This document shows, in pieces, positions 17,411-43,415 of a DNA stretch of 64,000 nt. The stretch is from Pseudonocardia autotrophica. GTDB lineage: Bacteria > Actinomycetota > Actinomycetes > Mycobacteriales > Pseudonocardiaceae. Below the pieces are notes generated by a model. The model was not told where the DNA came from, searched no databases, and saw nothing but the letters and a program-made list of their open reading frames with translations. Both the position numbers and the translations under genes were made by a program. Position 1 is the first letter of the stretch, and each line of letters begins with the position of its first letter. The stretch spans positions 6,882,001 through 6,946,000 of the forward strand of contig NZ_AP018920.1 of NCBI RefSeq assembly GCF_003945385.1. The letters are read 5' to 3'.

Positions 17411-18418
17411 TCAGCCGGCGCTCACGGTGCTGGTGCGGCCGTACTGCAGGACCGGCGCGATCTCGGTGACCGCGTCGTCGCCGTAGGCGTCGGCGAGCCG
17501 GGGCAGATCGGCCTCCGAGATCGACCATTCCTGGGCGCCCTCGGTCTCGATGACCAGCACGGCGACGAGCGCGCCGAGCTGTGCCGCCCGCTCGGGGGTG
17601 AGGCCGGCGTCGATCCCGGACAGGAAACCGGCCCGGAAACCGTCGCCGACCCCGGTGGGATCGAGCACCTCCCGGGCCGGGACGGCCGGGATCCGCAGCT
17701 CGAGCCCGTCCCGGTCGGCGATCTCGACGCCCGCCCGGCCGAGGGTGGTGACCCGCAGCCCGACCCGGCGGGTGATCTCCTCGGCCGACCAGCGGGTCCG
17801 TTCCCGGAGCAGCTGCCACTCGTACTCGTTGGTGAACAGGTAGCGGGCGCCGTCGATCAGTTCCCGGCACTGCTGACCGTCGAGGCGGGGCAGCTGCTGG
17901 GAGGGATCGGCGGCGAAGTCGACACCCAGCGAACGGGCCTGCCGGGTGTGGGTGATCATGGCGTCCGGGTCGCAGGCGCCGATCAGGATCAGCGAGATCT
18001 CGTGCCGGGCGTGCACCGGGGCGATGGTGATGGTCTTCGACTCGCTCATCGCGCCCGGATGGAACGAGGCGATCTGACACTCGTCGGCATCGGTCGTGCA
18101 GGTGAATCGGCCGGTGTGTGCGGACTCGACGACCAGCACCTCGTCGCAGATCACGCGGTTCTCCTCGAGCCGCCGGCGGTAGTCGTCGAAGTCGGCCCCG
18201 ACCGCGCCGAGCAGCAGCGGGCGTCGTCCGAGCAGGCCCATCCCGTAGGCGATGTTGGCGGCCACGCCGCCGCGGTGCACGACGAGCTGGTCGACGAGGA
18301 AGCTGAGCGAGAGCCGGTCGAGCTTGCCGATGAGGATGTGGTCGGCGAACCGGCCGGGGAATCTCATGAGGTGGTCGGTGGCGATCGACCCGGACACGGC
18401 GATGGTGCCGATGGTCAT
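17411..18418 (-). CDS. adoK: Adenosine kinase
   Basis: A 335-residue PfkB-family kinase. The N-terminus (VSGSIATDHLMRFPGRFADH) and body (FTCTTDADECQIASFHPGAMSE, FAADPSQQLPRL, YLFTNEYEW) follow the mycobacterial adenosine kinase closely. The PfkB signature DPTGVGDGFRAGFLSG carries the catalytic Asp. It phosphorylates adenosine to AMP. As the last gene of the methyl-cycle operon it removes the adenosine made by AhcY and so pulls SAH hydrolysis forward. It is 14 bp downstream of purU. Confidence 0.93.
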   Translation of the reverse strand: MTIGTIAVSGSIATDHLMRFPGRFADHILIGKLDRLSLSFLVDQLVVHRGGVAANIAYGMGLLGRRPLLLGAVGADFDDYRRRLEENRVICDEVLVVESAHTGRFTCTTDADECQIASFHPGAMSESKTITIAPVHARHEISLILIGACDPDAMITHTRQARSLGVDFAADPSQQLPRLDGQQCRELIDGARYLFTNEYEWQLLRERTRWSAEEITRRVGLRVTTLGRAGVEIADRDGLELRIPAVPAREVLDPTGVGDGFRAGFLSGIDAGLTPERAAQLGALVAVLVIETEGAQEWSISEADLPRLADAYGDDAVTEIAPVLQYGRTSTVSAG

Positions 18419-18432
18419 GGTGGATGCTCCTG

Positions 18433-19350
18433 TCAGAAGACGACGGTGGTGCGCCCGTCGACGAGGACGCGGTCGTCGCAGTGCCAGGCCACGGCGCGGG
18501 CCAGGACGGTCCGTTCGATGTCGGCGCCGCGGCGGGTGAGCTCGGCGACGGTGGCGCGGTGGTCGACCCGGACCACGTCCTGCTCGATGATCGGGCCCTC
18601 GTCGAGGTCCTCGGTGGCGTAGTGCGCGGTGGCGCCGATCAGCTTGACCCCGCGCTCCTTGGCACGGCTGTAGGGACCGGCGCCGGCGAAGGCAGGCAGG
18701 AAGGAGTGGTGAATGTTGATCACCGGTGCGCCGACGGAGTGCAGGAAGTTCGCGGAGAGGATCTGCATGTAGCGGGCCAGCACCACGAGCTCGGTGCCGC
18801 AGCCGCGCACCAGCTCCAGCTGCCTGCGCTCGGCATCCTCCTTCGCCTGCGGTCCCCGGCCGACCGGGATGTGGGTGAAGGGGACGCCGAACGCGCGGAC
18901 GTCGTCGGCGAGATCCGGATGGTTGGAGACGACCTGGACCACGTCGATCGGGAGCTCGCCGCGGCGGGTCCGCCACAGCAGGTCCAGCAGGCAGTGGTCG
19001 TGCCGCGACGCGAAGACCGCGGTGCGGGTGCGCGCGGCGACCGGCCGGAAGCTGTAGTCCGCGCCGAGCGGGCGCGCGACCTCCACCGCGAAGGCGTGCT
19101 CGAGCGCGGGCAGCTGCGCCGCGAGGTCGTAGAGGTGGAAGACGATCCGCAGGAAGAACCGCCCCCCGGAGGGGCCGGTGGTGTCCTGATCGGACTGGAC
19201 GATGTTGGCCGCGTGCTCGGCGAGGAAGCTCGACACGCGGGCGACGACGCCCGGGCGGTCGATACAGGTGACGACCAGCCGGGCCAGTTCGTCCGGGTTC
19301 TCGGTCGGAGCGGTCCGTGGCGACACGGCACGGCTCTGGACGGCAGTCAT
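18433..19350 (-). CDS. purU: Formyltetrahydrofolate deformylase
   Basis: A 305-residue enzyme with an N-terminal ACT domain (LVVTCIDRPGVVARVSSFLAEHAANIVQSDQD) and a C-terminal formyl-transferase fold. The catalytic Asn-His appears in INIHHSFLPAF, followed by GVKLIGATAHY and DEGPIIEQD with the catalytic Asp. It hydrolyses 10-formyl-THF to THF and formate. In this operon it could balance one-carbon folate pools or release carbon oxidised from methyl groups. It lies 9 bp downstream of ahcY. Confidence 0.93.
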   Translation of the reverse strand: MTAVQSRAVSPRTAPTENPDELARLVVTCIDRPGVVARVSSFLAEHAANIVQSDQDTTGPSGGRFFLRIVFHLYDLAAQLPALEHAFAVEVARPLGADYSFRPVAARTRTAVFASRHDHCLLDLLWRTRRGELPIDVVQVVSNHPDLADDVRAFGVPFTHIPVGRGPQAKEDAERRQLELVRGCGTELVVLARYMQILSANFLHSVGAPVINIHHSFLPAFAGAGPYSRAKERGVKLIGATAHYATEDLDEGPIIEQDVVRVDHRATVAELTRRGADIERTVLARAVAWHCDDRVLVDGRTTVVF

Positions 19351-19359
19351 GCGTGCCTC

Positions 19360-20844
19360 TCAGTAGCGGTAGTGCTCGGGCTTGTACGGGCCCTCGACGT
19401 CGACACCGATGTACTCGGCCTGGTCCTTGGACAGCGTGGTCAGTTCCCCGCCCAGTGCCAGCACGTGCACCTTCGCGACCTTCTCGTCGAGGTGCTTCGG
19501 GAGCCGGTAGACGTCCTTGTTGTACTCGTCGTGCTTGGTGAACAGCTCGATCTGGGCGATCGTCTGGTTCGCGAACGAGTTCGACATCACGAACGACGGG
19601 TGCCCGGTCGCGTTGCCCAGGTTCATCAGCCGCCCCTCGGACAGCACCAGGATCGTGTGCCCGTCCGGGAAGATCCACTCATCGACCTGCGGCTTGATGT
19701 TGACCTTGTTGATGCCCGGGATCCGGCCCAGCCCGGCCATGTCGATCTCGTTGTCGAAATGACCGACGTTGCACAGGATCGCCTGGTGCTTCATCTTCGC
19801 CATCAGCTCGGTGGTGATGATGTCCTTGTTCCCCGTCGTGGTCACCACCACGTCCGCCGAACCGATGACGTCCTCCACCCGGGCCACCTGGAAGCCCTCC
19901 AGCAACGCCTGCAACGCACAGATCGGGTCGATCTCCGACACGATCACCCGCGCACCCTGACCCGCCAGGGCCTCCGCACAGCCCTTACCGACGTCGCCGT
20001 AACCGGCCACCACCGCGACCTTGCCGCCGATCAGCACATCGGTGGCGCGGTTCAACCCGTCGAGCAACGAGTGCCGGATGCCGTACTTGTTGTCGAACTT
20101 CGACTTCGTCACCGAGTCGTTCACATTGATCGCCGGGAACAACAACTTGCCCTGCTCAGCCAGCTGGTAGAGCCGGTTCACCCCGGTCGTGGTCTCCTCG
20201 GTGACCCCACGGATGTCGGAGTTGATCGTCGTCCAGCGCTTCGGGTCCTCGGCCAGGCTGCGCCGCAGCGTGTCGAACACCACCCGCTCCTCGTCCGAGA
20301 CGCTCAGGTCGTCATCGGCGAAGCTCGGCACCACACCGGTCTGCTCGAACTCCACACCCTTGTGCACCAGCAGCGTCGCGTCACCACCGTCGTCGAGGAT
20401 CATGTTCGGCCCCACGACGTTGCCGGCCTCATCGGTGAACTTGAACAGCTGCTCGGTGCACCACCAGTAGTCCTCGAGCGACTCGCCCTTCCAGGCGAAC
20501 ACCGGCACACCCGCCGGCTTCTCCGGCGTGCCGTGCGGACCGACCACCGTCGCCGCCGCCGAATCATCCTGGGTGGAGAAGATGTTGCACGACACCCACC
20601 GCACATCAGCCCCCAGGCTGACCAGGGTCTCGATCAACACCGCGGTCTGGGTCGTCATGTGCAGCGAGCCCGCGATCCGGGCACCGTGCAACGGCTTGGC
20701 CTCAGCATACTCCCGACGCAGGTCCATCAGACCCGGCATCTCGTTCTCGGCCAGCCGGATGTCCTTACGCCCGGCCTCGTGCCCGCCGATGTCGGCGATC
20801 GCGAAGTCGAGCCCGCCACGGTTCTGCAGCTTCGGGTGGCTCAT
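19360..20844 (-). CDS. ahcY: Adenosylhomocysteinase (SAH hydrolase)
   Basis: A 494-residue NAD-dependent enzyme converting SAH to homocysteine and adenosine. It has [19 protein letters not shown], the substrate site around [16 protein letters not shown], the NAD-binding GYGDVGKG and the conserved C-terminus ending KPEHYRY. Length matches the actinobacterial form with its insertion near residue 150. ATG 20844 overlaps the metK stop (ATGA). It removes the inhibitory product of SAM-dependent methylation in this operon. Confidence 0.96.
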
Positions 20845-22091
20845 CGGACACCTCCGGCGAGCGCGGGGGTGGCGTCCGTGGCGCGGCCGGCGGCGGCGCG
20901 CAGCGACTCGGCCCGATCGGTGCGCTCCCACGGCAGGTCCACATCGGTCCGGCCGAAGTGGCCGTACGCCGAGGTCGCCGCATAGATCGGCCGGCGCAGG
21001 TCGAGGTAGTCGCGGAACGCCGCCGGGCGCAGGTCGAAGTGTTCGGCCACCAGCTCCTCGATCAGCTTCCGGTCGACCGTCTCCGAGCCGAAGGTCTCGA
21101 CCAGCACCGACACCGGCCGGGCCACCCCGATCGCGTAGGCGACCTGGACCTCGGCCCGGCCCGCCAGGCCGGCCGCGACCAGGTTCTTCGCCACGTAGCG
21201 GGCCGCGTACGCCGCCGACCTGTCCACCTTGGACGGGTCCTTGCCGGAGAAGGCCCCGCCGCCGTGCCGGGCGAAGCCGCCGTAGGTGTCGACGATGATC
21301 TTGCGTCCGGTCAGTCCGGCGTCGCCGACCGGACCGCCGATCACGAACCGCCCGGTCGGGTTGACCAGCAGCTCCGCGCGCAGCGTCGCGGCGTCGTAGA
21401 GCTCGGCGGGCAGCACCGGGACCACGACGTGCTCCCAGATGTCGGAACGGATCTGCTCGGTCGTGACGTCCTCGGCGTGCTGGGTGGAGACCAGCACCCG
21501 CTCCACCGCGACCGGGCGACCGCCCCGGTAGCGGACCGACACCTGGGTCTTCCCGTCCGGCCGCAGATAGGGCAGCGTGCCGTCCTTGCGAACCTCGGAG
21601 AGCCTGCGCGACAAGCGATGTGCCAGCGCGATCGGGGTCGGCATGAGCTCCGGGGTCTCGTCGCAGGCGTAACCGAACATCATCCCCTGGTCGCCGGCGC
21701 CGGCCTGGTCCAGCTCGTCGTCGGAGGTCCGCCCACGGTGCTCGTGCGCCTCGTCGACCCCCTGGGCGATGTCCGGGGACTGCTTGTCCAGCGCGACCAG
21801 CACCGCACAGTTGTGCCCGTCGAAACCGAAGTCACCGCGGTCGTAGCCGATCCGGTTCACCGTGTCCCGGACGATGCCGGTGTAGTCCACGGTCGCCGTG
21901 GTCGTGATCTCCCCGGCCAGCACCACCATCCCGGTGGTGATCAGGGTTTCGCAGGCCACCCGGGCCTCCGGATCCTCGGCGAGGATCGCGTCCAGCACGG
22001 CGTCGGAGATCGCGTCGGCCATCTTGTCGGGATGGCCCTCGGTCACCGACTCGGAGGTGAACAGGAAGTCGTGGTCGTCGGACGAGGTCAT
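20841..22091 (-). CDS. metK: S-adenosylmethionine synthetase
   Basis: A 416-residue enzyme making SAM from methionine and ATP. Motifs are [20 protein letters not shown] at the N-terminus, [12 protein letters not shown], and the P-loop-like [19 protein letters not shown]. Full family length. ATG 22091 overlaps the stop of the methionine synthase gene; its own stop overlaps ahcY. A typical genome has a housekeeping metK elsewhere, so this may be a pathway-dedicated copy, but that cannot be judged from the window. Confidence 0.95.
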
Positions 22092-23251
22092 CGTCTCAGG
22101 TCTCCTCGGTGCTCGGAGGGGGTGTCGTCGGAGGTCACGGCCGGTACCGGCACCGGCGGACCGTGATCGGGTTCGGGTTCGGGGTCGGGGCGCGTCGCCG
22201 GGAGGCCGGCGTCGTCGGGCGGGAGTGCACGGGCGGGACCGGCGGTGCCGGTGAGCTCGTCGCGTACCAGCCGGGTCCCGGCGACCATCGCGTGCAGCTT
22301 CGCCCTGGCGATCGGGCCGGGAAGGTGCCGCAGCCCGCAGTCCGGATTGATCACCAGGCGCTCCGCGGGGAACAGCTCCAGCGCCCGGCGGATGCGGCCG
22401 GCGACGAGCTCGGGGCTCTCCACCCGCCGGCTCTTCACGTCGATCACGCCCAGCCCGACGCCGCGGTCCCAGCCCTGCTCGGCGACGATCGGCAGGTCAC
22501 CGAGGCCCTTGCGGCCGAACTCCAGCACCAGGTGGTCCACCGAGGCGTCCAGCACCGCGGGGAACAGGAAGTCGTAGTGCCCCTCCCAGGAGGGCCGGGC
22601 GTAGCGGTTGCCGTAACAGACGTGCAGCCCCCACTCGGCGGGCACACCCGCGGTGACGACGTTGATCGCCTCCACCGCGAGCCCCACCTCGTCCGGGTAG
22701 CCGGCCAGGAACGGCTCGTCGATCTGCAGGTGGGTGGCGCCCCGCGCGAGGAGCGCGTGCGCCTCGGCACCGAGCAGCCGGGCGATCGCCAGCACCAGCT
22801 CGCGGCGGTCCGGGTAGGCGTCGTTGCGGACGTGGCGGGCCAGCGAGAACGGGCCGGTGAAGGAGAACTTCACCGGGCGCTCGGTCTGCGCCGCGGTGAA
22901 CCCGAAGTCGTCGGCCAGGCCGAGCGAGGTCGCCTCGGACGGAGCCGGCAGCGGCGTGCCGACGCGCACGTCGTAGTAGTCGAAGTAGAAGTCCTTCGTG
23001 GTCCGCGGGATCTCCATCCCGGAGATCCGGGCGAGCAGGTAGTCCAGGTCGTTGTCCCGGCGCAGCTCGCCGTCGGAGACGATGTCGATCCCGGCGAGCT
23101 CCTGGTCGCGCAGTGCGGCCTTGATCGCCGTCTCGTGCACGTCGAGCAGCTGGGCCCGGCTCATCCGGCCCCGGCAGTACTCGGTCTTCAGCCGCTCCAT
23201 CCAGTCCGGGACCGGATAGGAGCCCACCACCGATGTCCGCAGCACGGCCAT
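22088..23251 (-). CDS. Short cobalamin-independent methionine synthase (MetE C-terminal type)
   Basis: A 387-residue protein matching only the catalytic C-terminal barrel of MetE, which is about 750 residues when full length. A zinc site is present: His210 and Cys212 in LHVCYGN, Glu244 in LVLEF, Cys305 in INPDCGL. It probably transfers a methyl group from 5-methyl-THF, or another donor, to homocysteine. Position between the methyltransferase and metK supports methionine regeneration. Core-only MetE proteins elsewhere can use corrinoid proteins or other donors, so the donor is uncertain. Confidence 0.82.
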
Positions 23252-24762
23252 CAGTCCCTGGCCTGCGCGGTCATCGTCACGATGTTTCCGCCGCCCGCAC
23301 GGTGCCGGAACCGTTCGTAGCGGACGTCGAACCCGCGTCGCCGGCCCACGTGCGCGAGCAACGGGCCGTTCACCCAGTTGACGACCGAACCGTCGTACTT
23401 CCCCGGGCCCCGGAAGTGCGTGCGGTACCCCTCGATCTCGGTGACGAACAGGTCGTGGCAGACCAGCCGCCCGTAGGGGTGCAGCAGCCGCAGGCTGTCC
23501 ACGAAGCTCTGCAGCGCACCGTTGTTCACGTGCATCCGGACGTCGGCGCCGGACTCCAGCAGCGGCCGCAGCAGCTCACCACCCAGGTCGGTCCCGCCGC
23601 CCAGGTCGTAGGTGTCCAGCCCGGCCAGCGGGACGTAGCGCTCGTCCAGCCGCACCGCGGCCCAGGCCCGTCGCCAGAAGTCGACCGCGGCGCCGGTGTC
23701 CGGGAACCGGTCCGGCATCGCGTCGGCGAGCAGCGACGGCCCGAGCCGGAGCAGCCGGTGCACGACGTCGGGCAGCCGGTCGATCCCGATCCCGATCGAC
23801 CCGGCCAGCTCGGCCGCGTCGGCGGCGCAGAGCTGCGCCCTGATCTCGACCTGGTAGGTACGCCCGCCCAGCTGAGCCACCTCGTCGGTGGGCAGGTTGT
23901 CGTAGACGTTCGACACGTAGACGAGGAAGATCTTGTACTTGAGAAAGCCGAGCGCGGTGCACGGCCGGGTCGCGTCCAGGGTGAACGAGCTGACCTGCTC
24001 GGCGTGCTCGGCCACCGCCTGCCTGGCCAGTTCCAGCACGTGCGCCGAGTAGTCGCACATCAGGTAGTGGAGCCGGCGGTAGTAGTCGCTCCCCCGTTCC
24101 TGGTCGAGCCGGGCGAACTCGTCCAGGAACACCTTCGCCTGACCGCCGTTGCCGACCCCGATCTCCAGCACGTACAGCTCGTCGGGCAGCGCCTGAGCGG
24201 TGACGAGACGGTCCCACACCCCGAACAGCTCCAGGATGAGCTCGCGGGCGGCCTCGGTGTTGCGGGCGTCGCTCTCCCCGCCGGGCAGCGCCTGCTCGTA
24301 CCCGCGGCCGGTGGACTTCTCCCAGAGCTCGAGGGCCGACCAGTAGAGCGCGTTGAAGTCCCACACGCAGCTGCGGCTGCCCGGCCCCCAGTCCTCCAGC
24401 GGGAGGTCGTCGCCGGTGGCCGAGAGCGCCGCCGCGGTCAGCTCGTGCAGCTCCTCGGGGCGGACCGAGCCCGAGCGGCGCAGGTCCACGGCGATCTCCA
24501 GGTCGTCGTCGCGGACACCGAGCGGTTCCGGCGGCGGCAGGCCGCCGGTGTCGGGCGTGGCCTGACCGATCCGCCGGGACTGCACGACGCCGCGGAAGTT
24601 GTCCCGGTACTGCACCCAGTCGGCGACCACCCGTACCCGGCTGAGGTCGACGTCGCTGGCGGTCACCGCGTCGAGAACGGGGAGCACCGCGTCGTTCAGG
24701 TTCACCGCGCGGGCCCCGCGGAGCCTGCTGTGTGGTCGGACGTCCAGTAGCACGGCGCTCAC
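23251..24762 (-). CDS. SAM-dependent methyltransferase of unknown target
   Basis: A 503-residue protein. A class I SAM-binding motif I is at residues 198-206 (VLEIGVGNG), with the acidic motif II-like residue about 30 residues later in YLMCDYSAHVLELARQ. That spacing and a long insertion recall MidA/NDUFAF7-type methyltransferases, but similarity is distant. An N-terminal domain of about 130 residues has no family I can name; WDFNALYWSALELWEKSTG precedes the core. GTG 24762 overlaps the metF stop and its stop shares one base with the next ATG. As the only methyl consumer in a complete SAM-cycle operon it is the likely reason the operon exists. Confidence 0.7.
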   Translation of the reverse strand: MSAVLLDVRPHSRLRGARAVNLNDAVLPVLDAVTASDVDLSRVRVVADWVQYRDNFRGVVQSRRIGQATPDTGGLPPPEPLGVRDDDLEIAVDLRRSGSVRPEELHELTAAALSATGDDLPLEDWGPGSRSCVWDFNALYWSALELWEKSTGRGYEQALPGGESDARNTEAARELILELFGVWDRLVTAQALPDELYVLEIGVGNGGQAKVFLDEFARLDQERGSDYYRRLHYLMCDYSAHVLELARQAVAEHAEQVSSFTLDATRPCTALGFLKYKIFLVYVSNVYDNLPTDEVAQLGGRTYQVEIRAQLCAADAAELAGSIGIGIDRLPDVVHRLLRLGPSLLADAMPDRFPDTGAAVDFWRRAWAAVRLDERYVPLAGLDTYDLGGGTDLGGELLRPLLESGADVRMHVNNGALQSFVDSLRLLHPYGRLVCHDLFVTEIEGYRTHFRGPGKYDGSVVNWVNGPLLAHVGRRRGFDVRYERFRHRAGGGNIVTMTAQARD

Positions 24763-25706
24763 CTTCCGGATACGACGACGGGTCGGTCGGGCTCGCACGG
24801 CACGGGCCCGAGCCCGGCGCGATCGAGGATCTCCGGCACACCGCGTTCGAAGCCGAACGCCATCACGTGTGCTCCGGACACCCCCGGGATGTCGGGTAGC
24901 TGCTGCAGCGTCTCCACGCACAGCCGGATGCCCTCCTCGGCGACCCGGCCCGGCAGCACCCCGCGCAGGCGCTTCTCCACCGCGGGGGGCACCGAGATGC
25001 CGGGGACCCCGGTACGCAGGAACTCCAGCATCCGCAGCGACCGGATCGGGCCCACCCCGGGCAGCACCGCACACCGCGGCGGCACCCCGAGATCGACCAG
25101 CTCGGCCATCCACCGCCGCAGCGGCTCGACGTCGAACACGTACTGCGTCTGGACGAACTCGGCCCCCGCCGCGACCTTCTTCGCCAGCCGCCGGGCCCGG
25201 AATCCGGCCGGCGGCGCGAACGGGTTCTCCACCGCCCCGATCAGCCAGCCCGGGTTCGCCGAGAGCGGCTCCCCGGAGAGCAGCACGCCGTCGTCCCGCA
25301 TCGCGCGGGCGATCCCGATCGCCTGCACCGCGTCGACGTCGAACACCGGCCTGCTCTCCGGGTGGTCGCCGAACCGGGGGTGGTCGCCGGTCAGCAGCAG
25401 TACCTGCGGCACGCCCAGCGCACCGGCGGCGAGCAGGTCGGACTGCAGGGCCATCCGGTTCCGGTCCCGGCAGGTCAGCTGCATGACGGGCGACAGGCCG
25501 GCCCGTCCGGCGATGACCGCGCCACCGAGGCTGGACATCCGGACCCGCGCGCCCTGGTTGTCGGTGATGTTGACGGCGTCCACCCAGCCGGACAGCAACC
25601 GGGCCCGGTGCAGGAAGTCCTCGGTGTCCGCGCCGCGGGGCGGTCCGAGCTCGGCCGTCAGGGCGAACCGCCCCGCGGCCAGCGCCGCACGCAGTCCGCC
25701 GCTCAT
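24759..25706 (-). CDS. metF: Methylenetetrahydrofolate reductase
   Basis: A 315-residue MTHFR barrel (FALTAELGPPRGADTEDFLHRA, VNITDNQGARVRMSSL, LTCRDRNRMALQSDLL, LLLTGDHPRFGDHP, GAEFVQTQYVFDVE). It interconverts methylene-THF and 5-methyl-THF using FAD. It is coupled by ATGA overlap to the MetV-like gene before it and by GTGA to the methyltransferase after it. Paired MetV/MetF proteins occur in acetogens and some other bacteria, where MetV is a required partner. In this operon MetF most simply supplies the methyl donor for the short methionine synthase. Confidence 0.88.
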   Translation of the reverse strand: MSGGLRAALAAGRFALTAELGPPRGADTEDFLHRARLLSGWVDAVNITDNQGARVRMSSLGGAVIAGRAGLSPVMQLTCRDRNRMALQSDLLAAGALGVPQVLLLTGDHPRFGDHPESRPVFDVDAVQAIGIARAMRDDGVLLSGEPLSANPGWLIGAVENPFAPPAGFRARRLAKKVAAGAEFVQTQYVFDVEPLRRWMAELVDLGVPPRCAVLPGVGPIRSLRMLEFLRTGVPGISVPPAVEKRLRGVLPGRVAEEGIRLCVETLQQLPDIPGVSGAHVMAFGFERGVPEILDRAGLGPVPCEPDRPVVVSGR

Positions 25707-26221
25707 CGCGGGGTCACACCGAGCTGACGGTGCAGCAGCGGACCCGGGTCCGCCGGGGGCGTCTCGTGCCCCTGCCAGTGGTTCACCCATGCGCTGCGGC
25801 CCCATTCCCGGTGGTCCGCCGGGTGGTGCAGCAGATCCAGGTCGCCGGTGTGCCCGTTGGCCTCCGCACGCTCGTAGGCCTGCACCCAGACGCACCGCAG
25901 GCTCGGATGCACCTCGCACATCCCGGTCGGTGACACCCCGCCGCACGGGCCGTTGCGCAGCTCCTTCGGGCAGGTCATCGGGCAGGTGTAGCCGGTCGTC
26001 GGCAGGGCGCACTGGCCACACATCCGGCAGCCGAACAGCTGCTCCTTCGTCACCCGCTCGGTCGCGGTGAACAGCCGGTACCCCCACGGCGTGCGTTCCA
26101 GGAGTGCGCCCAGCCGGGCCCATACGGCGTTGCGCCGCAGCAGCCGATTCGATCGGTAGCCACCCGAGCCGGGGATCCGCGGCCGGAAGGGCCTCGGCCA
26201 GGAAAACCGTTCGGTCTCCAT
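25703..26221 (-). CDS. MetV-like MTHFR C-terminal-domain protein
   Basis: A 172-residue protein whose centre is a Cys-rich segment (FGCRMCGQCALPTTGYTC, then PMTCPKELRNGPCGG), the hallmark of the MTHFR C-terminal/MetV domain that binds metal or an Fe-S cluster. First gene of the methyl-cycle operon. ATG 26221 is chosen for its RBS (GGGAG); an upstream in-frame extension would cover a leader hairpin. Expected to form a complex with the adjacent MetF and deliver electrons or stabilise it, by analogy with acetogens. Confidence 0.8.
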   Translation of the reverse strand: METERFSWPRPFRPRIPGSGGYRSNRLLRRNAVWARLGALLERTPWGYRLFTATERVTKEQLFGCRMCGQCALPTTGYTCPMTCPKELRNGPCGGVSPTGMCEVHPSLRCVWVQAYERAEANGHTGDLDLLHHPADHREWGRSAWVNHWQGHETPPADPGPLLHRQLGVTPR

Positions 26222-26257
26222 ATCGCACTCCCTTCGGACACCGTTGCTCGACGAGAA

Positions 26258-26292
26258 CGCATCCGGTCTTCCACAGGAATTGCCGGAATGCG
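26258..26292 (-). promoter_or_regulatory. Leader hairpin before the methyl-cycle operon
   Basis: On the minus strand an outer stem (CGCAT and CCGG pairing with CCGG and ATGCG, one bulged T) encloses an inner TTCC/GGAA stem with a TGT triloop. It ends 37 bases before the first ATG and is outside any gene. It may be an attenuator, an RNA-binding site or a 5'-end stabiliser. Confidence 0.4.
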
Positions 26293-26496
26293 ATGTGAAG
26301 TAGCCTGACACGTCATCCGGTCGTCGGTCATCGGGTCGATCGCCAGAACATCCGGGCCCGGGACTGTCGTCCTACACAACGTGCTCCGACCCCCTGGATC
26401 GAGGCACGATCCGGCCGACATGTGGCACCGCACTACTCGACATCGGTACTTTTTGTGTCATATCACAGTCGATTTCAATGGACGGCGAAACGGTCG

Positions 26497-26526
26497 TTGC
26501 CTCCCGCCTCGGGATGGCCCTACTGT
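26497..26526 (+). promoter_or_regulatory. Leaderless promoter of the PucR-type regulator
   Basis: TTGCCT (26497-26502), an 18-bp spacer and TACTGT (26521-26526), with the ATG only six bases after the -10. Transcription would start at or next to the A of ATG. The same TACTGT -10 with 18-bp spacing appears before the amino-acid ABC operon. Confidence 0.55.
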
Positions 26527-26532
26527 GCTGAC

Positions 26533-27939
26533 ATGGCAGCAGCGGACTCGACACCGAGCCGCACCGAGCACCCGTCTCCCGATGCCGCCGGTCGACCGGA
26601 AATCGCGGAGAAGCTGCTCCGGCTGCGCCGGTTCGTCGCGATGTGCAGCCACCTGTCGGCGGCCGCCGCCCAGCAGAACGATCTCGATGCGATCGTCGGC
26701 CTGCTCGCCTCGGCCACCGGCTCATCGGTCGCGGTGCTCGATCGCGGGCTGGAGGTACTCGCCGAGGCGGGCCCCTGCACCGCCACCGAGATCCTGGCGA
26801 TCGCGCGGGACCACGCGGGGACGGCCGGGTTCAGCCGGATCCTCTCGGCGGCCGCGCGCAACCGGCGCGCGCTGCAGGTTCCGGGGCACCGGCAGGAGAC
26901 ACCGGTGGGCGTCGCACCCGTCTCGGTCGGCAAGGATCTGGCCGGTTACCTGCTGTCCACCGCGGAGCGGGACGGGCCGAACGACACCGGGCTCGGCGAG
27001 GACCTGATGCTGCTGGCCGGCGAGCACGCCGCGATGGTCTGCGGGGTGCTGCTGGGCCGGGACCTGGTGGTCACGGCCGCAGCCGGGCGGGCCCGCCGCG
27101 AACTGGTCGAGGGCCTGCTGCTGGCCCGCGACATCGACCGCGGCGAAGCGACGCAGTGGGCCCAGCACCTGGGTTACGACGAGGCGCTTCCGCATGCGGT
27201 CACCGTGGTACCGCTGCCCCGCGACTCCGATGCCCCGGCCACCGCGGCGATCGTCGAGCAGGTGCTCGGCGCGCTCGCCCCGGAGGCCATCCTCGCGGTC
27301 CGGGCCGACGAGGTGGTCGCGGTCCTGCCCGGTCCCGGCGCGAGCACCACCGCCCGGCCCCCCGGTGCACCACCTCCGAGCGGCACGAAACCGGACGGCG
27401 CGACCTCCGGGACCGCCCTCCCGGCCGCGGTCGCCCGGGCACTGGAGCTGACCGAGGGGCTCGTCGAGGAACTGCACCGGCGCGGCGTGGCGGTTCCCGC
27501 GATCGGGATCGGCAACGAGTGCCGGGCGGCCGCGCAGGTCGCCCGCTCGTACTCGGAGGCCCGCCGGGCACTCACCGCGGGCCTGCGATCACCCGTCCCG
27601 GGCGCGGTGGTGCCGTTCGCCGAGCTGGGGGTGCACCGGCTGCTGTTGCAGTTCCCGGACCCGGCCGAGCTGCGCCGGTTCGGCGACGAGGTGCTCGGGC
27701 AGCTCTTCGCGGACGGCTCCTCGACCGGCGCGGACCTGCTGACGACGCTGTCGGTGTACTTCGAGGAGAACAGCAGCCCGAGCCGCACCGCGCGCCGGCT
27801 GCACGTCCATCCGAACACCGTCGCCTACCGGCTGCGCCGGGTCGAGGAGATCACCGGTCTGCGCCTCGACCTGCACCGGGACCGGTTGATGGCCGAGATC
27901 GCGGTCGAGATCATCGAAGGGTCGAGGTACGGATCATGA
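26533..27939 (+). CDS. PucR/CdaR-type transcriptional regulator
   Basis: A 468-residue regulator with an N-terminal sensory region and a central CdaR/GGDEF-like domain. The C-terminal helix-turn-helix of the PucR type reads SPSRTARRLHVHPNTVAYRL, followed by RVEEITGLRLDLHRDR. It is divergent from the methyl-cycle operon and cotranscribed by ATGA overlap with the fused homocysteine methyltransferase/MTHFR. This makes it the obvious candidate regulator of the whole locus. The ligand is unknown. ATG 26533 fits a leaderless promoter. Confidence 0.87.
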   Translation: MAAADSTPSRTEHPSPDAAGRPEIAEKLLRLRRFVAMCSHLSAAAAQQNDLDAIVGLLASATGSSVAVLDRGLEVLAEAGPCTATEILAIARDHAGTAGFSRILSAAARNRRALQVPGHRQETPVGVAPVSVGKDLAGYLLSTAERDGPNDTGLGEDLMLLAGEHAAMVCGVLLGRDLVVTAAAGRARRELVEGLLLARDIDRGEATQWAQHLGYDEALPHAVTVVPLPRDSDAPATAAIVEQVLGALAPEAILAVRADEVVAVLPGPGASTTARPPGAPPPSGTKPDGATSGTALPAAVARALELTEGLVEELHRRGVAVPAIGIGNECRAAAQVARSYSEARRALTAGLRSPVPGAVVPFAELGVHRLLLQFPDPAELRRFGDEVLGQLFADGSSTGADLLTTLSVYFEENSSPSRTARRLHVHPNTVAYRLRRVEEITGLRLDLHRDRLMAEIAVEIIEGSRYGS

Positions 27940-29744
27940 GCCTGACGGTCTCCGAGTTCCGGGCGATGGTGAGCGGCCGCGTGCTGGTCTGCGACGGCGC
28001 GATGGGCACCATGCTGCACGCCGCGGGCAACGCCCTCGACCAGTCACTGCCCGCACTGTCCTGCTCGGACCCGGATCTGGTCCGGGCGGTGCACGCCCGC
28101 TACGTCGACGCCGGGGTGGACATCGTCCAGTCCAACACCTTCGGTGCCAACCGGCTGCGGCTGCACGAGTTCGGCCTCGCCGACCGGCTCGGCGAGATCA
28201 ACCGCGACGCGGTGCGGATCGCCAGGGAGGCCGCCGGCGCCCGGCCCGGGGTACTGGTGGCGGGATCGGTGTCCCCCGCGGTGAGCGTCCAGCAGCGCAG
28301 ACGGGTCTCCGCGTCGGCCCGCACCGACGCGGTGACCGAGCAGCTGGGGTTGCTCGACGGGGCCGGAGTCGACCTGATCGTCCTGGAGACCTTCGGACAC
28401 CTGGACGAGCTGCTCGAGGCCGCCCGGATCGCGGTCGAGGAGACCGACCTACCGGTGATCGCCCAGGCCACGTTCGGCCCGGACGGTCGCACGCTGAGCG
28501 GCCACCCGGCCCGCGACGTGGCGCACGCGCTCGGTGAGATCGAGGTCGCGGCGATCGGGACGAACTGCACGCTCGGCCCGCGGCACATGCTCGACGTGGT
28601 GCGGGAACTGTGCGAGCACACCGACCTGCCGGTGACCGGCCAGCCCAATGCCGGGTTGCCGCGCCGGACCGGGCCGGCCCGGTTCGAGTACGACATCGAC
28701 GCCGAGTACCTCGTGCGCTACGTCGGGCAGCTGGTCGAGGTGGGGGCCCGGGTCGTCGGCGGATGCTGCGGGACCACACCGACCCAGCTCGCCGGTGTCG
28801 TCGAGCTCGTCCGGGAACGCCAGGCACGCCGGCGGACGACGGTGACCGGCACCGTCCCCGCCGCACCGGCGCCGGCGCCCGCCGTCCGGGACCCGGGCCA
28901 CAGCGACCTGCTGGCGGTCGAGCTGACCCCGGACGACCGGGGAGGCACCGAACAGGCCGTCGACGCCGCGCGCCGGCTGCACGAGCACGGGGTGAACCTG
29001 ATCTCGGTCGGCGCGGGAGGCGGGGTGCGCGCCCGGCTCAGCCCGGTCGACCTCGCGCTGCACCTGCACCAGCGGCTCGGGGTGGACACCGTGGCCACGG
29101 TGTCCACCTGGGACCGCACGATCATGGCCCTGCAGGCCGACCTGCTCGGGGCGCACGCGCTCGGCATGCACCGGATCGTCTGCGAGACCGGCAATCCACC
29201 GCTGGTCGGTGACTACCCGCACGTGGACGGCATCTGGGACGTCGACTCGATCGGCCTGATCGAACTGCTCACCGGGCTCAACGACGGCACCGACTTCTAC
29301 GGGCTCCCGCTGCCGACCCGCACCACCTTCGAGATCGGCGCGCGGATCAACCCGGGCGGCCGGGACCTGGCCGCCGCGGCCGCCCGGGCCCGGGACAAGA
29401 TCGCGGCCGGCGCCCAGTTCCTGATCACCCGGCCGGTCTACGCGGTGGAGGACCTGGAGCGGCTGCTGGAACAGATCGGTGAGCCGCTCCCTCCGGTGCT
29501 GGTCTCGATCCGCCCGCTGAGCGGGTTCGCCGAGGCCGAGTACCTGACCCACGAGGTACCCGACGTGCACGTCCCGCCCCGGGTGCTGGATCTGTTGGAC
29601 CGGGCCGGGAGCGGTGGGCAGCGGGTCGGCCTGGAGCTGGCCACCGAGCTGGCGCAGCAGGTCCGTCCGCTGGCCGGCGGCCTGGTCGTGGTGCCCAACG
29701 GGGATCCGGTGGACACCGTCCTGGCGGTGGCCGGAGAGCGCTGA
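27936..29744 (+). CDS. Fused homocysteine S-methyltransferase / methylenetetrahydrofolate reductase
   Basis: A 602-residue two-domain enzyme. Residues about 1-300 are a homocysteine S-methyltransferase barrel (LVCDGAMGTMLHAAG) with zinc Cys in GTNCTLGP and GGCCGTTP. Residues about 320-602 are a MetF-like barrel (VSTWDRTIMALQADLLGAHA, FEIGARINPGG, GAQFLITRPVYAVEDLERLL). The same fusion is known as YitJ in Bacillus, where it couples methyl-folate production to methionine synthesis. It duplicates both activities of the divergent operon. A Pro/Ala linker joins the domains. Confidence 0.9.
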   Translation: MSLTVSEFRAMVSGRVLVCDGAMGTMLHAAGNALDQSLPALSCSDPDLVRAVHARYVDAGVDIVQSNTFGANRLRLHEFGLADRLGEINRDAVRIAREAAGARPGVLVAGSVSPAVSVQQRRRVSASARTDAVTEQLGLLDGAGVDLIVLETFGHLDELLEAARIAVEETDLPVIAQATFGPDGRTLSGHPARDVAHALGEIEVAAIGTNCTLGPRHMLDVVRELCEHTDLPVTGQPNAGLPRRTGPARFEYDIDAEYLVRYVGQLVEVGARVVGGCCGTTPTQLAGVVELVRERQARRRTTVTGTVPAAPAPAPAVRDPGHSDLLAVELTPDDRGGTEQAVDAARRLHEHGVNLISVGAGGGVRARLSPVDLALHLHQRLGVDTVATVSTWDRTIMALQADLLGAHALGMHRIVCETGNPPLVGDYPHVDGIWDVDSIGLIELLTGLNDGTDFYGLPLPTRTTFEIGARINPGGRDLAAAAARARDKIAAGAQFLITRPVYAVEDLERLLEQIGEPLPPVLVSIRPLSGFAEAEYLTHEVPDVHVPPRVLDLLDRAGSGGQRVGLELATELAQQVRPLAGGLVVVPNGDPVDTVLAVAGER

Positions 29745-29755: not shown

Positions 29756-29787
29756 TCGAGCGGCCCGTCACGTCGAGCGGCCCGTCA
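29756..29787. repeat. 15-bp direct repeat at a convergent gene junction
   Basis: TCGAGCGGCCCGTCA occurs twice (29756-29770 and 29773-29787), the second copy covering the stop codon of the next minus-strand gene. It probably arose by local duplication. It marks the boundary between the methyl-cycle locus and the catabolic island. Confidence 0.6.
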
Positions 29788-30591
29788 TCGGGCGGGGCCG
29801 AAGTAGTAGTCGTGCGCCGCGTGGTGGATCCGCTCGCGGACCGCCGGATCGGGCACGATCCGGGCGAACGACGCCAGCTCGGCCGCGTAGCCGGTGGGTT
29901 CGCGGGCCCCGACGAACGGGGCGTCGCTTCCCCAGAACACCCGGTCCGGCCCGGCCCGGGAGATCAGCTCCGCAGCAGTACCGACGAGCCGCTCCGCGGC
30001 CGGCCGGAAGCGGTACCCGGCGGACAGCTTGACCCGCACCCGTCCGGTGTCCAGCGCGCGCAGCAGTGCCTCGCCGCCCGGCGTCCGGTAGCCGAGTTCG
30101 GGATGCGGGTCGCCGAAGTGGTCCACGACGACCGGCACCCCGTGCCCGCACAGCCCGGCCAGCACCGGAGCCAGACGATCGCGTTCCACGTTGAGCTCGA
30201 CGTGCATGCCCAGATCGGCGACCGTGTCCAGCACCCGCCGGTAGCCCGGATCGGCCGGGTCCGGGAGCTCGGCGCGCCTGCGCCACTGGAACCGGATCCC
30301 GGCGACGCCGGCGGCGGTGCACCGGGCACGCAGCTCCGCCGGATCCGTGCCGGGACCGGCCGTCACCGTGCCCCGCAGCCTCGGGTTCCGGCGGAGTGCG
30401 GCCACCGTGTAGGCGTCGTCGGCGAGCAGGCTCATCGCGGAGACGACCCCGTGGGTCACCCCGTGCCGCTGCATCAGCGTCTCGAACTCCTCGACCGGCA
30501 GGGCGCGCTCGGGCACCGTCCACGCGTGCGCGGCCATCGGCAGCGCCCCGGTGAACAGGTGCACGTGCGTGTCGACGAGCACCGGGCTCAT
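29785..30591 (-). CDS. Amidohydrolase-superfamily enzyme (PF04909 type)
   Basis: A 268-residue TIM-barrel metal-dependent hydrolase. The N-terminal metal motif is VDTHVHLF, with VVDHFGDPH in the middle and the late Asp in WGSDAPFVG. This subfamily includes lactone hydrolases such as 2-pyrone-4,6-dicarboxylate lactonase and ACMSD-like decarboxylases in aromatic catabolism. ATG 30591 overlaps the stop of a second, related amidohydrolase. It ends the minus-strand operon of the island. Substrate unknown. Confidence 0.82.
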   Translation of the reverse strand: MSPVLVDTHVHLFTGALPMAAHAWTVPERALPVEEFETLMQRHGVTHGVVSAMSLLADDAYTVAALRRNPRLRGTVTAGPGTDPAELRARCTAAGVAGIRFQWRRRAELPDPADPGYRRVLDTVADLGMHVELNVERDRLAPVLAGLCGHGVPVVVDHFGDPHPELGYRTPGGEALLRALDTGRVRVKLSAGYRFRPAAERLVGTAAELISRAGPDRVFWGSDAPFVGAREPTGYAAELASFARIVPDPAVRERIHHAAHDYYFGPAR

Positions 30592-31424
30592 CCCGCCGTC
30601 GCCGGCCGGAGGCCGTAGAGCCGGGCCGCGGTGCCGCCGAGCACCGCGGTGGCGTCGGCCGCGGAGAGCCCGGCGACCGCGCGCCGCGCGGTCGCGACCA
30701 TGCCGGCGTACTCGCCGCGGGTCTGGGTGACGTCCGAGCCCCACAGCACCCGGCTCGCACCGAACCGCGCGACCGACCAGTCCACCGGGCGGGCCGGGTC
30801 GTCGAACCGGGCCAGGTTCAACGTGGTGATCTTGACGTGCACCTGCTCGTGATCGGTCAGCGCGAGCAACGGTTCGGCCCCGGCCGGCGGCCCGGTCACG
30901 TCCACCGCGGCGATGTGGTCCAGCACGACCGGGACGCCGGGCACCGCGTCGAGCACTGCGGGCAGCCCGCGCAGCACCTCCGCGGAGTTCCACCGGTAGA
31001 TGTGCAGGCACATCGACAATCCGGTGTCCGCCGCGGCGGCCCAGACCGCGCGGGCCTCGGGTCCCGCGAACCAGCCGGTCCCGGCCGGGCCGCCGTGCTG
31101 ATCGCCGCCGGGGGCGGTGAGCCGGATCGCGACCGCACCGCGCTCGGCCAGCCGGTGCACGGTGCCTACCGCGTCCGGGGCCTGCCCGTCGATCACGCAC
31201 ATCGCCCGCACCCGGTCCGGGTGCCGGGCGGCGGCATCGAGCACGTAGCTGTTGTCGAAGCCGTACACATGTGCCCGCTGCACCGCGATCGCGGCATCGG
31301 CTCCGTTGTCCCGCAACGCTTCCAGTAGCCGTTCGACGGGCATCAGGGCGTTCGGCGACGCGCCGGGAAGGTGCGGGTAGCCCGGCTCGTCGGTGACCAG
31401 GTGGGCATGCGCATCGATGAGCAC
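30588..31424 (-). CDS. Amidohydrolase-superfamily enzyme (PF04909 type)
   Basis: A 278-residue barrel hydrolase with IDAHAHLV at the N-terminus, VVLDHIAAVDV near residue 170 and WGSDVTQTRG near residue 235. Related to its downstream neighbour at family level but clearly divergent, so two steps or two subunits are possible. Lactonase, hydrolase or decarboxylase activity on a ring-cleavage product is a reasonable guess. ATG 31424; 24 bp separate it from the lipocalin-like gene. Confidence 0.82.
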   Translation of the reverse strand: MLIDAHAHLVTDEPGYPHLPGASPNALMPVERLLEALRDNGADAAIAVQRAHVYGFDNSYVLDAAARHPDRVRAMCVIDGQAPDAVGTVHRLAERGAVAIRLTAPGGDQHGGPAGTGWFAGPEARAVWAAAADTGLSMCLHIYRWNSAEVLRGLPAVLDAVPGVPVVLDHIAAVDVTGPPAGAEPLLALTDHEQVHVKITTLNLARFDDPARPVDWSVARFGASRVLWGSDVTQTRGEYAGMVATARRAVAGLSAADATAVLGGTAARLYGLRPATAG

Positions 31425-31448
31425 CTCGTCGATCCTCTCTCTGACGGG

Positions 31449-31868
31449 TCAGCTGCGGCGACGCCAGCGCAGCACCGGCGTCGGTGCCGGGCCGGGCTCC
31501 GCGACCCGCAGCACCAGGTCGGTGCCGGTCAGCTCGACCCGCCGGACGAGCGTGGTGCCGATCCAGTTGGGGTGGATGCAGGCCTCGACGTGGTGGGATA
31601 CCCGGTCGCCGTGCCAGGTGTAGCGGCCGGAGTAGCCGCCGTAGGCGCGGACCGCGGCGAGCTTCTCGGCATCGGTGGTGAACCGCCAGTTCGCGGTCGC
31701 GGGCGCGGGCCGGTCCCCGGCCATGTAGTGCACGGCCAGGTCACCGGCCGCGGTGTAGATCAGCCGCCCGAGCGGCTCCCGGCCGAGCGGGAAGCGCTCG
31801 CCCGGTTCGGCGTCCGGTACCTCGTAGCCGACCAGCTCCCAGGCTCCGACGAGCGGACAGCCGGTCAC
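31449..31868 (-). CDS. Lipocalin-like domain protein
   Basis: A 139-residue beta-barrel-type protein: LVGAWELVGYEVPDAEPGE opens the domain, then GRLIYTAAGDLAVHYMAGDRP, typical of the lipocalin-like PF13924 family. No signal peptide, so it is cytoplasmic. Members sit in many catabolic and secondary-metabolite clusters as small-molecule binders or isomerase-like enzymes. GTG 31868 overlaps the aldolase stop (GTGA). Confidence 0.75.
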   Translation of the reverse strand: MTGCPLVGAWELVGYEVPDAEPGERFPLGREPLGRLIYTAAGDLAVHYMAGDRPAPATANWRFTTDAEKLAAVRAYGGYSGRYTWHGDRVSHHVEACIHPNWIGTTLVRRVELTGTDLVLRVAEPGPAPTPVLRWRRRS

Positions 31869-32644
31869 CGGGTCCCCCGCAATCCGGCACGCACTCCACC
31901 GACCAGCGCGTCGGCGGCCCTGGCGAGCAGGGTCGCGTCGTTGCCGATCACCACGAAGCCGTGTCCCAGCTCGGCGGCCCGCAGCGCACCGTCCACACCG
32001 GCGCTCGCCGCCCCGCACGGTTTCCCGGCGGCCGCGGCGGCGGCCCGGCCGGTGTCCAGCAGCGCGCGCACGGCAGGTTCGCCGGCGCCGAGCCCGAGCG
32101 ACAACGCCAGGTCCCCGGCGCCGAGGAAGACCGCGTCCACCCCGTCCACCGCCAGGATCTCCGGCGCCGCCTCGATCGCCTCCGCGCTCTCCAGCTGCGG
32201 GATGCACAGCACCTGCTCGTTGCCGAACCGGGTGTACTCCGCCCGGGACAGCAGGCCCCAGCGCCCGGCCCGGCTGGTCCCGCCGGCGCCCCGCGCACCG
32301 TGCGGCGGGAACCGCATCGCGGACACCACCGCGCGGGCCTGCTCGGCGTCGTCCACGTGCGGGACCAGGATCCCGCAGGCACCGGAGTCGAGCACCCGGC
32401 CGATCGTGGCGGGTTCGTGGCCGGGCACCCGGACCAGCGGGGTCATCCCGTACGCGCGGGCCAGCACGATCATCCCGGCGGCGGTCTGCAGGTCGAGCGG
32501 GGCGTGTTCGAGGTCGATGACCACGAAGTCGATCCCGACCGCGGCCATGATCTCCACGCTCTCGGTGGTGGCCAGCTTGATCCAGGCCCCGACCGCGGGG
32601 GCGCCCGGTTCCCGGCCGGTGAGCGCGCCGGGCAGGTCAGCCAC
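31865..32644 (-). CDS. HpcH/HpaI-family aldolase
   Basis: A 259-residue class II pyruvate-type aldolase. Characteristic segments are VVIDLEHAPLDLQTA with the catalytic His, MTPLVRVPGHEPATIGRVLD, GILVPHVDDAEQA, CIPQLES with the metal Glu, and VFLGAGDLALSLGL with the metal Asp. The family cleaves 4-hydroxy-2-oxoacids to pyruvate or oxaloacetate-type products plus an aldehyde, a typical last step of aromatic ring degradation. It overlaps the cupin gene by 8 bp and the lipocalin-like gene by 4 bp. Confidence 0.87.
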   Translation of the reverse strand: MADLPGALTGREPGAPAVGAWIKLATTESVEIMAAVGIDFVVIDLEHAPLDLQTAAGMIVLARAYGMTPLVRVPGHEPATIGRVLDSGACGILVPHVDDAEQARAVVSAMRFPPHGARGAGGTSRAGRWGLLSRAEYTRFGNEQVLCIPQLESAEAIEAAPEILAVDGVDAVFLGAGDLALSLGLGAGEPAVRALLDTGRAAAAAAGKPCGAASAGVDGALRAAELGHGFVVIGNDATLLARAADALVGGVRAGLRGTR

Positions 32645-33566
32645 CGGACACCCACTCCGGGGCCGGGTACTCGTCGGCGTTGCGGACCCATCCGGGCTTG
32701 GCCGAGAAGTCGGCCCGCGGCGGGCTGAAGATGTCGATCAGCTGGTGCTCTCCGTCGCCGATCGCCCGGCTGGTGTGCTCGGTCGGCGGCGGGATGATCG
32801 CCACGCCGGGGCTGCCGATCTCGGCGTGCACGTCCGGCCGCCACTGGGAGAGCTTCGCCGTCCACGGGGTCCGGACGTGATGCACGTAGTCCCCGGCCAC
32901 GGTCAGCGAGCACTGCTCGAAGTCGTCGTGGTGGTGCGGGGAGAGCCGGTCCGGGTCACGGGGCCCGTGCTTCGGGTCGCCGAAGTTCACCATGAACGCG
33001 CTGGACCGGAAGATCCGCCCGAACCGGTCCGGCGAGACCGGGTGGTCGGCGTTGCGGTACACCCGGATCCGTGGCCCACCGACCGGGTCCGGCCACGGCT
33101 CCGGCCGGGCCACCCTGGGGTGCGGCTCCCGGTAGCTCTCCGCGTTGTGGCAGCGCGGCAGCAGATCGGCGGCCCGGACGTCGAACAGCCGGACCAGATC
33201 GAGGTCGCCGGCCGCGGTGAGGTCGCTCCCCCCGGCCGGCACGATCGCGATCCCGCGGCCGGCCAGCTCGGCGGCGCCCGCGGTGTCGTGACCGATCCGG
33301 ACGTTCCCTCCGTCGTGCGGGACGACGACCAGGTACTCGTGCCGCTGCAGCTCGGCCGGCCGGGCCAGCGGGTCGCCGGCGACGGCCCGGGTGTAGGCCA
33401 GCACGAAGTTCTGCCCGCGGACATTCCAGGTGCGGCTGCCCGCCTCGCTCACCTCGGACGGCGCCAGGTCGTCCAGCGCGAACGCCTGGAACTCGGCGAC
33501 CGGCTCGTCGGACCGGGTCGCGGTACCCCCGGGCAGCGTCGCCCGGGGGTCGGTGGGGCTGTACAC
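32637..33566 (-). CDS. Cupin-domain protein
   Basis: A 309-residue protein with a C-terminal cupin. PHHHDDFEQCSLTVAGDYVH carries the His/Glu metal ligands of motif 1 and PPPTEHTSRAIGDGEHQLID the second-motif His. An N-terminal half, with VLAYTRAVAGDP and HEYLVVVPHDGGNVRIG, may be a second, degenerate cupin. It could be a dioxygenase or an isomerase; the family does not decide. GTG 33566 has AGGAA upstream. Confidence 0.72.
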   Translation of the reverse strand: MYSPTDPRATLPGGTATRSDEPVAEFQAFALDDLAPSEVSEAGSRTWNVRGQNFVLAYTRAVAGDPLARPAELQRHEYLVVVPHDGGNVRIGHDTAGAAELAGRGIAIVPAGGSDLTAAGDLDLVRLFDVRAADLLPRCHNAESYREPHPRVARPEPWPDPVGGPRIRVYRNADHPVSPDRFGRIFRSSAFMVNFGDPKHGPRDPDRLSPHHHDDFEQCSLTVAGDYVHHVRTPWTAKLSQWRPDVHAEIGSPGVAIIPPPTEHTSRAIGDGEHQLIDIFSPPRADFSAKPGWVRNADEYPAPEWVSGG

Positions 33567-33589
33567 GACGTTCCTCCGTCTCGTGGCGG

Positions 33590-34535: not shown

Positions 34536-34591
34536 TAATCGTGAACTCACGGGTGTGCAAGGGTTGCCGCCGCAGGAGAGTGGGAGGCGCC

Positions 34592-36998: not shown

Positions 36999-37026
36999 GC
37001 CCCCTCCTGACCGATCCGGAGCCGCC

Positions 37027-39512: not shown

Positions 39513-39515
39513 GCC

Positions 39516-39552: not shown

Positions 39553-39559
39553 GCCGGGC

Positions 39560-40561: not shown

Positions 40562-40570
40562 GGGATCTCC

Positions 40571-43381: not shown

Positions 43382-43415
43382 CCTGCTGACATCCGCCCGG
43401 CCCGGCGGGCAACGA

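Follow-up and report, generated by a model that had tools for sequence, protein, structure and literature searches.

In Denitratisoma, AhcY, AdoK, serine hydroxymethyltransferase (SHMT), methylenetetrahydrofolate reductase (MTHFR), methionine synthase, and MetK are reported to be encoded near the estradiol methyltransferase genes and co-induced (PMC7448270), so regeneration of S-adenosylmethionine (SAM) in a catabolic cluster already has a precedent. MTHFR, FolD, and PurU are described as the set oxidizing methyl-tetrahydrofolate (methyl-THF) in chloromethane-grown Methylobacterium CM4 (PMC3621897), and in a marine system outlined in PMC12478193 demethylation and methionine synthesis share corrinoid parts. 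The locus described here lies in a 64,000-bp stretch of the Pseudonocardia autotrophica genome (NZ_AP018920.1, positions 6,882,001 to 6,946,000), called the window below. It is a minus-strand operon of eight genes, in the order MetV, MetF, MT (a methyltransferase), MetE-short, MetK, AhcY, PurU, and AdoK from 26221 down to 17411, and is called the cassette. The operon is tentatively read as a dedicated, horizontally spread SAM-cycle module that forms the methyl-handling arm of a catabolic supercluster and serves methyl disposal. A competing reading to be taken seriously is that MT methylates a pathway intermediate.

Like the emtABCD region of Denitratisoma oestradiolicum, the window places MetK, AhcY, AdoK, MTHFR, and an enzyme that forms methionine next to a single methyltransferase system, with catabolic genes linked (PMC7448270). 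The system described in that source has a cobalamin-dependent methyltransferase, MetH, and SHMT and belongs to an anaerobe, whereas the window has MT of class I fold, MetE-short, and PurU, and the setting is actinobacterial. Pfam scans of 40 window proteins gave no match to a B12-binding or SHMT family. With pCMU01 (metF2, folD, purU) the locus shares a dedicated MTHFR and PurU near methyl-using genes, redundant with other copies; on pCMU01, as described in PMC3621897, the methyl group reaches tetrahydrofolate (THF) via the corrinoid proteins CmuA/CmuB, and the set is without MetK, AhcY, and AdoK. In the window, the SAM arm is present, no corrinoid protein was found among the same 40 proteins, and the cassette has no FolD.

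All eight gene families named in the original prediction were recovered at their places by Pfam and NCBIfam matches (Table 1). Most of these genes had been said to overlap by 1–4 bp. With the starts chosen here, this holds for four of the seven junctions (MetF/MT 4 bp, MT/MetE 1 bp, MetE/MetK 4 bp, MetK/AhcY 4 bp); a fifth, MetV/MetF, overlaps by 7 bp, and AhcY/PurU and PurU/AdoK are separated by 9 and 11 bp. Residues 6–325 of AdoK match solved adenosine kinase chains (2pkf, 4o1g, and others) at E of about 3e-115, which is a full-length match and fits a mycobacterial-type adenosine kinase; these chains are presumably the M. tuberculosis enzyme. The predicted divergent transcription of a PucR-type regulator and a homocysteine methyltransferase/MTHFR fusion (HMT-MTHFR) is correct, and PRK08645 is above its cut-off across residues 6–595 of the latter, covering both the homocysteine S-methyltransferase and the MTHFR domain. 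PucR is not part of that fusion but a separate gene in its own frame, overlapping HMT-MTHFR by 4 bp. The open reading frame 26643–29744, taken as one PucR/HMT/MTHFR protein, was rejected, as PucR is read in another frame. The window has G+C content of 72.6% and the genome is 7.5 Mb. Genes were called with an own codon-model script, and the presence tables are based on tblastn.

The cassette is one end of a predicted catabolic region of about 46 kb (window 17.4–64 kb), and the whole supercluster appears geared to the uptake and degradation of an organic compound. It is literally true that no biosynthetic genes flank the operon, as the original prediction noted, but the conserved catabolic genes on its flank had been missed. 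A polar amino-acid-type ATP-binding cassette (ABC) transporter, named from sequence reading (15231–17398), converges on the 3' end of the operon; only distant ATPase matches to it were seen in the loci checked, so the supercluster probably ends at 17411. The importer ATPases were named from similarity to ABC ATPases and from position, and its permeases from Pfam. In PDB searches, MetE3, one amidohydrolase, and the FAD_binding_2 protein found matches at family level only.

Table 1. Coordinates of the cassette genes, the divergent genes, and the neighbouring catabolic genes in the window (aa, amino acids; CoA, coenzyme A; FAD, flavin adenine dinucleotide)
Feature	Position	Strand	Basis or remark
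MetV-like (DUF5981, PF12225)	25703..26221	-	Pfam 93.8 bits
MetF (PF02219), cassette copy	24759..25709	-	Pfam 117.2 bits
MT, class I SAM-methyltransferase, 503 aa	23251..24762	-	Pfam matches below cut-off, no NCBIfam match, predicted fold
MetE-short, catalytic half of cobalamin-independent methionine synthase	22088..23251	-	Pfam; NCBIfam matches below cut-off; zinc ligands kept
MetK, cassette copy	20841..22091	-	TIGR01034 565.5 bits
AhcY, cassette copy	19360..20844	-	TIGR00936 605.3 bits
PurU, formyl-THF deformylase	18433..19350	-	TIGR00655 346.9 bits, above cut-off
AdoK, adenosine kinase	17411..18421	-	PF00294; solved adenosine kinases E 3e-115
PucR-type regulator, divergent	26533..27939	+	PF13556, PF17853
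HMT-MTHFR (YitJ-like)	27936..29744	+	PRK08645 497.5 bits, cut-off 453
Two Amidohydro_2, Lipocalin_5, HpcH_HpaI aldolase, 309-aa protein without Pfam match, DUF6282	29785..34483	-	Pfam; recur beside cassettes
CoA transferases, hydrolases, AMP-ligases, aldehyde and alcohol dehydrogenases, glyoxalase-fold protein	within 34580..52550	+	recur beside cassettes
FAD monooxygenase, acyl-CoA dehydrogenase, MaoC-type hydratases, Amidohydro_2, KSTD-like FAD_binding_2 protein (these also recur beside cassettes)	within 34580..52550	+	
Aldo-keto reductase inside the plus-strand block	39560-40561	-	
IclR-type regulator	52645..53349	+	recurs beside cassettes
Opp/Dpp-type importer, two permeases and two ATPases	53727..57652	+	recurs beside cassettes
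CoAT3, fused CoA-transferase III, 756 aa	57649..59919	+	marker gene
Amidohydro_1 protein and NHL-repeat protein	59942..62151	+	recur beside cassettes
MetE3, further MetE-like zinc protein	62148..63353	+	PF01717 54 bits; HxC, DCG motifs
SBP_bac_5-like solute-binding protein, start only, cut by window end	63491..64000	+	match to Pseudonocardia MH-G8 SBP_bac_5 protein

Recurrence of the block was counted for 32 non-cassette window genes, each at no less than 42% identity, in 40 kb or 80 kb around cassettes of other genomes; floors of 38% and 36% were used in two other related comparisons. Within 40 kb of the cassette, 19 of the 32 were found in Acrocarpospora corrugata, 21 in Nonomuraea longispora, 23 in Herbidospora yilanensis, 25 in Phytohabitans flavus, and 26 in Phytohabitans suffuscus. 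These five genomes belong to two other families, and the median identities are 64–73%. Two Pseudonocardia genomes, taken to be P. abyssalis and MH-G8, have 8 and 11 block genes in 80 kb, and in MH-G8 the MetE3 gene adjoins MT. MetE3 is 66–83% identical to its counterparts beside other cassettes. None of the 32 was found in the 80 kb examined for P. dioxanivorans and for P. endophytica, or in the 40 kb for P. thermophila. In the P. thermophila stretch one block match appears at the 38% floor (acyl-CoA dehydrogenase, 40%) and none at 42%; this genome has CoAT3 on another contig (G427:C43), and the count of zero says nothing about the genome as a whole. Stretch G418 also has none, but it is a contig of only 24 kb. 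Of 40 cassette genomes, 14 have CoAT3 at E<=1e-170, and in at least nine of these 14 it lies 8–17 kb from MT (the same contig was confirmed for six and assumed from matching coordinates for G454, G456, and G458). Among 60 relatives, four have CoAT3 and all four have MT (p 0.005, or 0.017 when the own genome is left out and 0.056 when only the genus is considered, with shared ancestry ignored).

In MH-G8, a flavin monooxygenase distantly Baeyer-Villiger-like, a metallo-beta-lactamase-fold lactonase-like protein, and carboxymuconolactone-decarboxylase-family proteins are encoded at L123:6239-10602. These genes are also near the cassette in the stretch taken as P. abyssalis, and the set hints at a cyclic substrate.

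The original prediction had proposed a search of genomes for the same gene order. The gene set recurs around MT in other genomes, beyond chance. The best 80 of 101 MT loci from other genomes, found with two peptide patterns, were compared; many are cut by contig ends, and the 45 flanked by 6.5 kb or more on each side form the well-flanked set. The loci are related by descent, and Fisher values overstate their independence. In the 80 loci, MetE-short is present in 76, MetK in 59, MetF in 55, MetV in 51, PucR in 34, AdoK in 32, HMT in 30, and PurU in 27, followed by AhcY (14), a second MetE-like family (13), FolD (11), Fhs (9), and MTHFR3 (8). The well-flanked loci have MetE-short in 44, MetK in 34, any MTHFR domain in 41, PurU in 21, Fhs in 4, PurU or Fhs in 25, MetK with one of these two in 24, and FolD in 11. 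MTHFR, FolD, and PurU or Fhs occur together in 11 of the 45; the window has MTHFR and PurU, with no FolD in the cassette. MT and MetE-short are thus a near-constant core, and the other parts are swappable. MTHFR3, a third kind of MTHFR, occurs with MetV or MetF in none of the 80 loci (Fisher p 2.5e-5, relatedness ignored), as if it and MetVF replaced one another. PurU and Fhs were also never found together, an exclusion that is weak at these small numbers (p 0.11 for n=45 and 0.016 for n=58, relatedness ignored). The MT tree mixes families, with Phytohabitans within Streptosporangiaceae and Nonomuraea beside Pseudonocardia, which points to horizontal movement of the module between lineages.

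A different setting was seen in L072, L078, and L083, where Opp-like and Liv-like importers with a luciferase-like monooxygenase adjoin the cassette. Downstream of the P. dioxanivorans-type cassette there are four conserved genes (L008:15243-20253, L012, L026), which on sequence reading resemble a split phosphoenolpyruvate-synthase-type phosphotransferase with a 477-aa partner. Just upstream of MetV, three Geodermatophilaceae loci encode an approximately 506-aa protein that matches no Pfam family (L049:135-1664, L080, L084:6788-8308), and two tiny-protein families (67 and 87 aa, no Pfam match) occupy the same place in five loci each (L044:8229-8432, L063:3302-3565).

The cassette is redundant with other genes of the genome. 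MetK has two copies, 65% identical. The two AhcY proteins are 99.6% identical, and their genes 99.66% identical over 1483 bp (the second gene is near G000:C1:6012487); set against the 35% difference between the MetK copies, this is probably a sign of recent gene conversion or duplication. MTHFR has five matches in the genome, four of them over the cut-off and two of the four outside the window, and one outside copy is far stronger than that of the cassette (294.6 vs. 115.9 bits). There are seven MetE-domain matches, including one full-length MetE, and five PurU over the cut-off, the cassette copy included. MT itself is patchy, being found in 17 of 60 relatives and in 2 of the 396 genomes from the phylum, with the own genome counted in both. 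Most of the cassette enzymes are of familiar kinds, as plain housekeeping methionine and SAM metabolism would have them, but with these further copies of MetK, AhcY, MTHFR, and PurU and the full-length MetE elsewhere and with the patchy MT, that explanation is highly improbable and was rejected. The original prediction of a SAM cycle dedicated to one methyltransferase, beyond housekeeping, is therefore upheld, and the proposed check for second copies excludes, on copy number, that the cassette holds the only ones. Another PurU adjoins an MTHFR-like gene outside the window (G000:C1:5090275-5091838); the pair is perhaps a second set for one-carbon oxidation.

MT has an N-terminal extension of about 120 residues. 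It has no NCBIfam match, and PF02636 (Methyltransf_28), which is assigned to some of its homologues, reaches 21 bits under a cut-off of 23.3. A structure model from a 97-sequence alignment has a predicted local distance difference test (pLDDT) score of 93.3, while an earlier one from 18 close sequences had 55. The best fold matches are MidA/NDUFAF7-like (5zu0, 5ztz, 4g67), at 11% identity and with an extra N-terminal part in MT, but they are tied within 1 Z with TmtA (18.2) and Coq5 (17.9); small-molecule methyltransferases are among the best. Residues 1–120 are barely covered in this comparison, and a fold missing from the list is no evidence against it. The MT profile gave no significant match to PDB sequences (best E 0.32). 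Homologues number 2062 matches among 7999 scored candidates, the closest among the matches listed being from Pseudonocardia sp. NPDC046786 (92%). A distant paralogue (39% identity) lies on the minus strand at L086:1450-2970, and its own homologues (718 matches among 7993 scored) come in part from Patulibacter, Baekduia, and Solirubrobacteraceae; no cassette genes were found around it by tblastn within the 3.4 kb examined. In Actinomycetospora sp. NBRC 106375, MT is present twice in almost identical form (L033, L034), one copy with a full cassette and the other without.

MetE-short is a MetE catalytic domain without the folate domain, and its zinc ligands are conserved in 75 of 76 sequences. 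In the lone catalytic domain and conserved ligands, it is similar to the core folate-independent synthases MesA-MesD, or split MetE, as reported in PMC7857596. It differs from the core synthases in that all nine NCBIfam matches are under the cut-off (best PRK04326, 269.7 bits vs. 406), in having MT as neighbour, and in a strictly conserved insert after the zinc-binding Cys212 (22575-22620), which is absent from full-length MetE. MesD is reported to have an insertion of its own, bearing a Tyr near the substrate (PMC7857596). A split MetE with a separate folate-domain partner is unsupported, as PF08267 is above the cut-off once in the genome, on the frame of full-length MetE. A literature search, with most subscription journals outside it, found no description of the cassette or of the MT family.

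MetK, AhcY, and AdoK lead from methionine to SAM, to S-adenosylhomocysteine (SAH), and to homocysteine and adenosine monophosphate (AMP). Because they work in this SAM-consuming direction, the cycle is not simply reversed, as one of the two original guesses had it, and an incoming methyl group would pass forward through SAM. The other part of that guess, that methyl groups are taken up from a methylated nutrient, is a better fit than the second guess, high-flux methylation of a single substrate, given the supercluster with its importer, a MetE-short without folate domain, and the frequent presence of PurU, FolD, or Fhs. Under methyl disposal, the importer would bring in a methylated compound, and the folate-domain-less zinc homocysteine methyltransferases (MetE-short, MetE3, and perhaps the HMT part) would move its methyl group to homocysteine. 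MetK would convert the resulting methionine to SAM, MT would hand the methyl on to an acceptor, THF being the boldest candidate, and AhcY with AdoK would turn SAH into homocysteine and AMP. The folate genes (MetVF or another MTHFR, FolD, and PurU or Fhs) would carry one-carbon units to formate, presumably as the net direction. PurU releases formate, and this flux is favoured because MetE-short has an MTHFR nearby and, in 25 of the 45 well-flanked loci, also PurU or Fhs. The joint recurrence of block and cassette, the importer within the cluster, two MetE-type enzymes without folate domain in the window cluster (MetE-short and MetE3), the role of MTHFR, FolD, and PurU in oxidizing methyl-THF during chloromethane use (PMC3621897), and the lack of a B12-binding or SHMT match among the 40 window proteins scanned all argue for methyl disposal.

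Several points weigh against it. FolD is missing from the window cassette and present in only 11 of 45 loci, 20 of the 45 have neither PurU nor Fhs, and the mutual exclusion of these two is statistically weak. PurU is also part of ordinary folate balance, and HMT-MTHFR or full-length MetE could be the source of methionine, from folate. The cassettes of P. dioxanivorans and P. endophytica are without the block (0 of 32), so the compound handled by the block is not the sole setting of the cassette. To our knowledge, no known enzyme would give MT a catabolic acceptor. One form of methyl disposal has MT as a SAM:THF methyltransferase; this is rather doubtful, both the acceptor and the entry of the methyl being pure inference, and a literature search on methyl transfer from SAM to THF found nothing relevant. 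MT would then form SAH and 5-methyl-THF from SAM and THF, and MTHFR, FolD, and PurU or Fhs would take the latter to formate, while AhcY and AdoK would close a portable methyl-oxidation loop with SAM as intermediate. THF as acceptor would account for the near-constant pair of MT and MetE-short with an MTHFR domain near it in 41 of 45 loci, and for a module in varied catabolic settings without a constant acceptor gene.

It is a realistic possibility that the role of MT is instead activation, by methylation of the imported compound or of an intermediate, with the cassette regenerating SAM for it from the folate pool. Anaerobic estrogen degradation in Denitratisoma, as presented in PMC7448270, is a direct precedent with the same SAM arm, the catabolic setting is found here too, and small-molecule methyltransferases are among the best fold matches of MT. 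However, no SHMT or other gene supplying one-carbon units is among the 40 window proteins scanned, PurU would drain such units, and MetE-short is without the folate domain; with the same cassette in differing flanks, one fixed MT substrate is not obvious. A biosynthetic role, that is, high-flux methylation of a product unrelated to the block, such as an osmolyte or specialised metabolite, with incidental linkage, is unlikely. It would suit the cassettes that occur without the block and the wide distribution of MT, but block and cassette are also found together in two other families, CoAT3 is confined to MT-bearing relatives (four of 60), and no recurrent biosynthetic neighbour is among the flank families identified.

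The locus links a large MT family to a conserved catabolic supercluster and thereby offers a concrete way to find the MT substrate. Should the methyl groups of a growth substrate travel via homocysteine and SAM, this would be an aerobic route of methyl use that does without corrinoid proteins. Were MT to activate its substrate by methylation, estrogen methylation would have an aerobic counterpart. In either case, the cassette is a natural, compact module for SAM regeneration.

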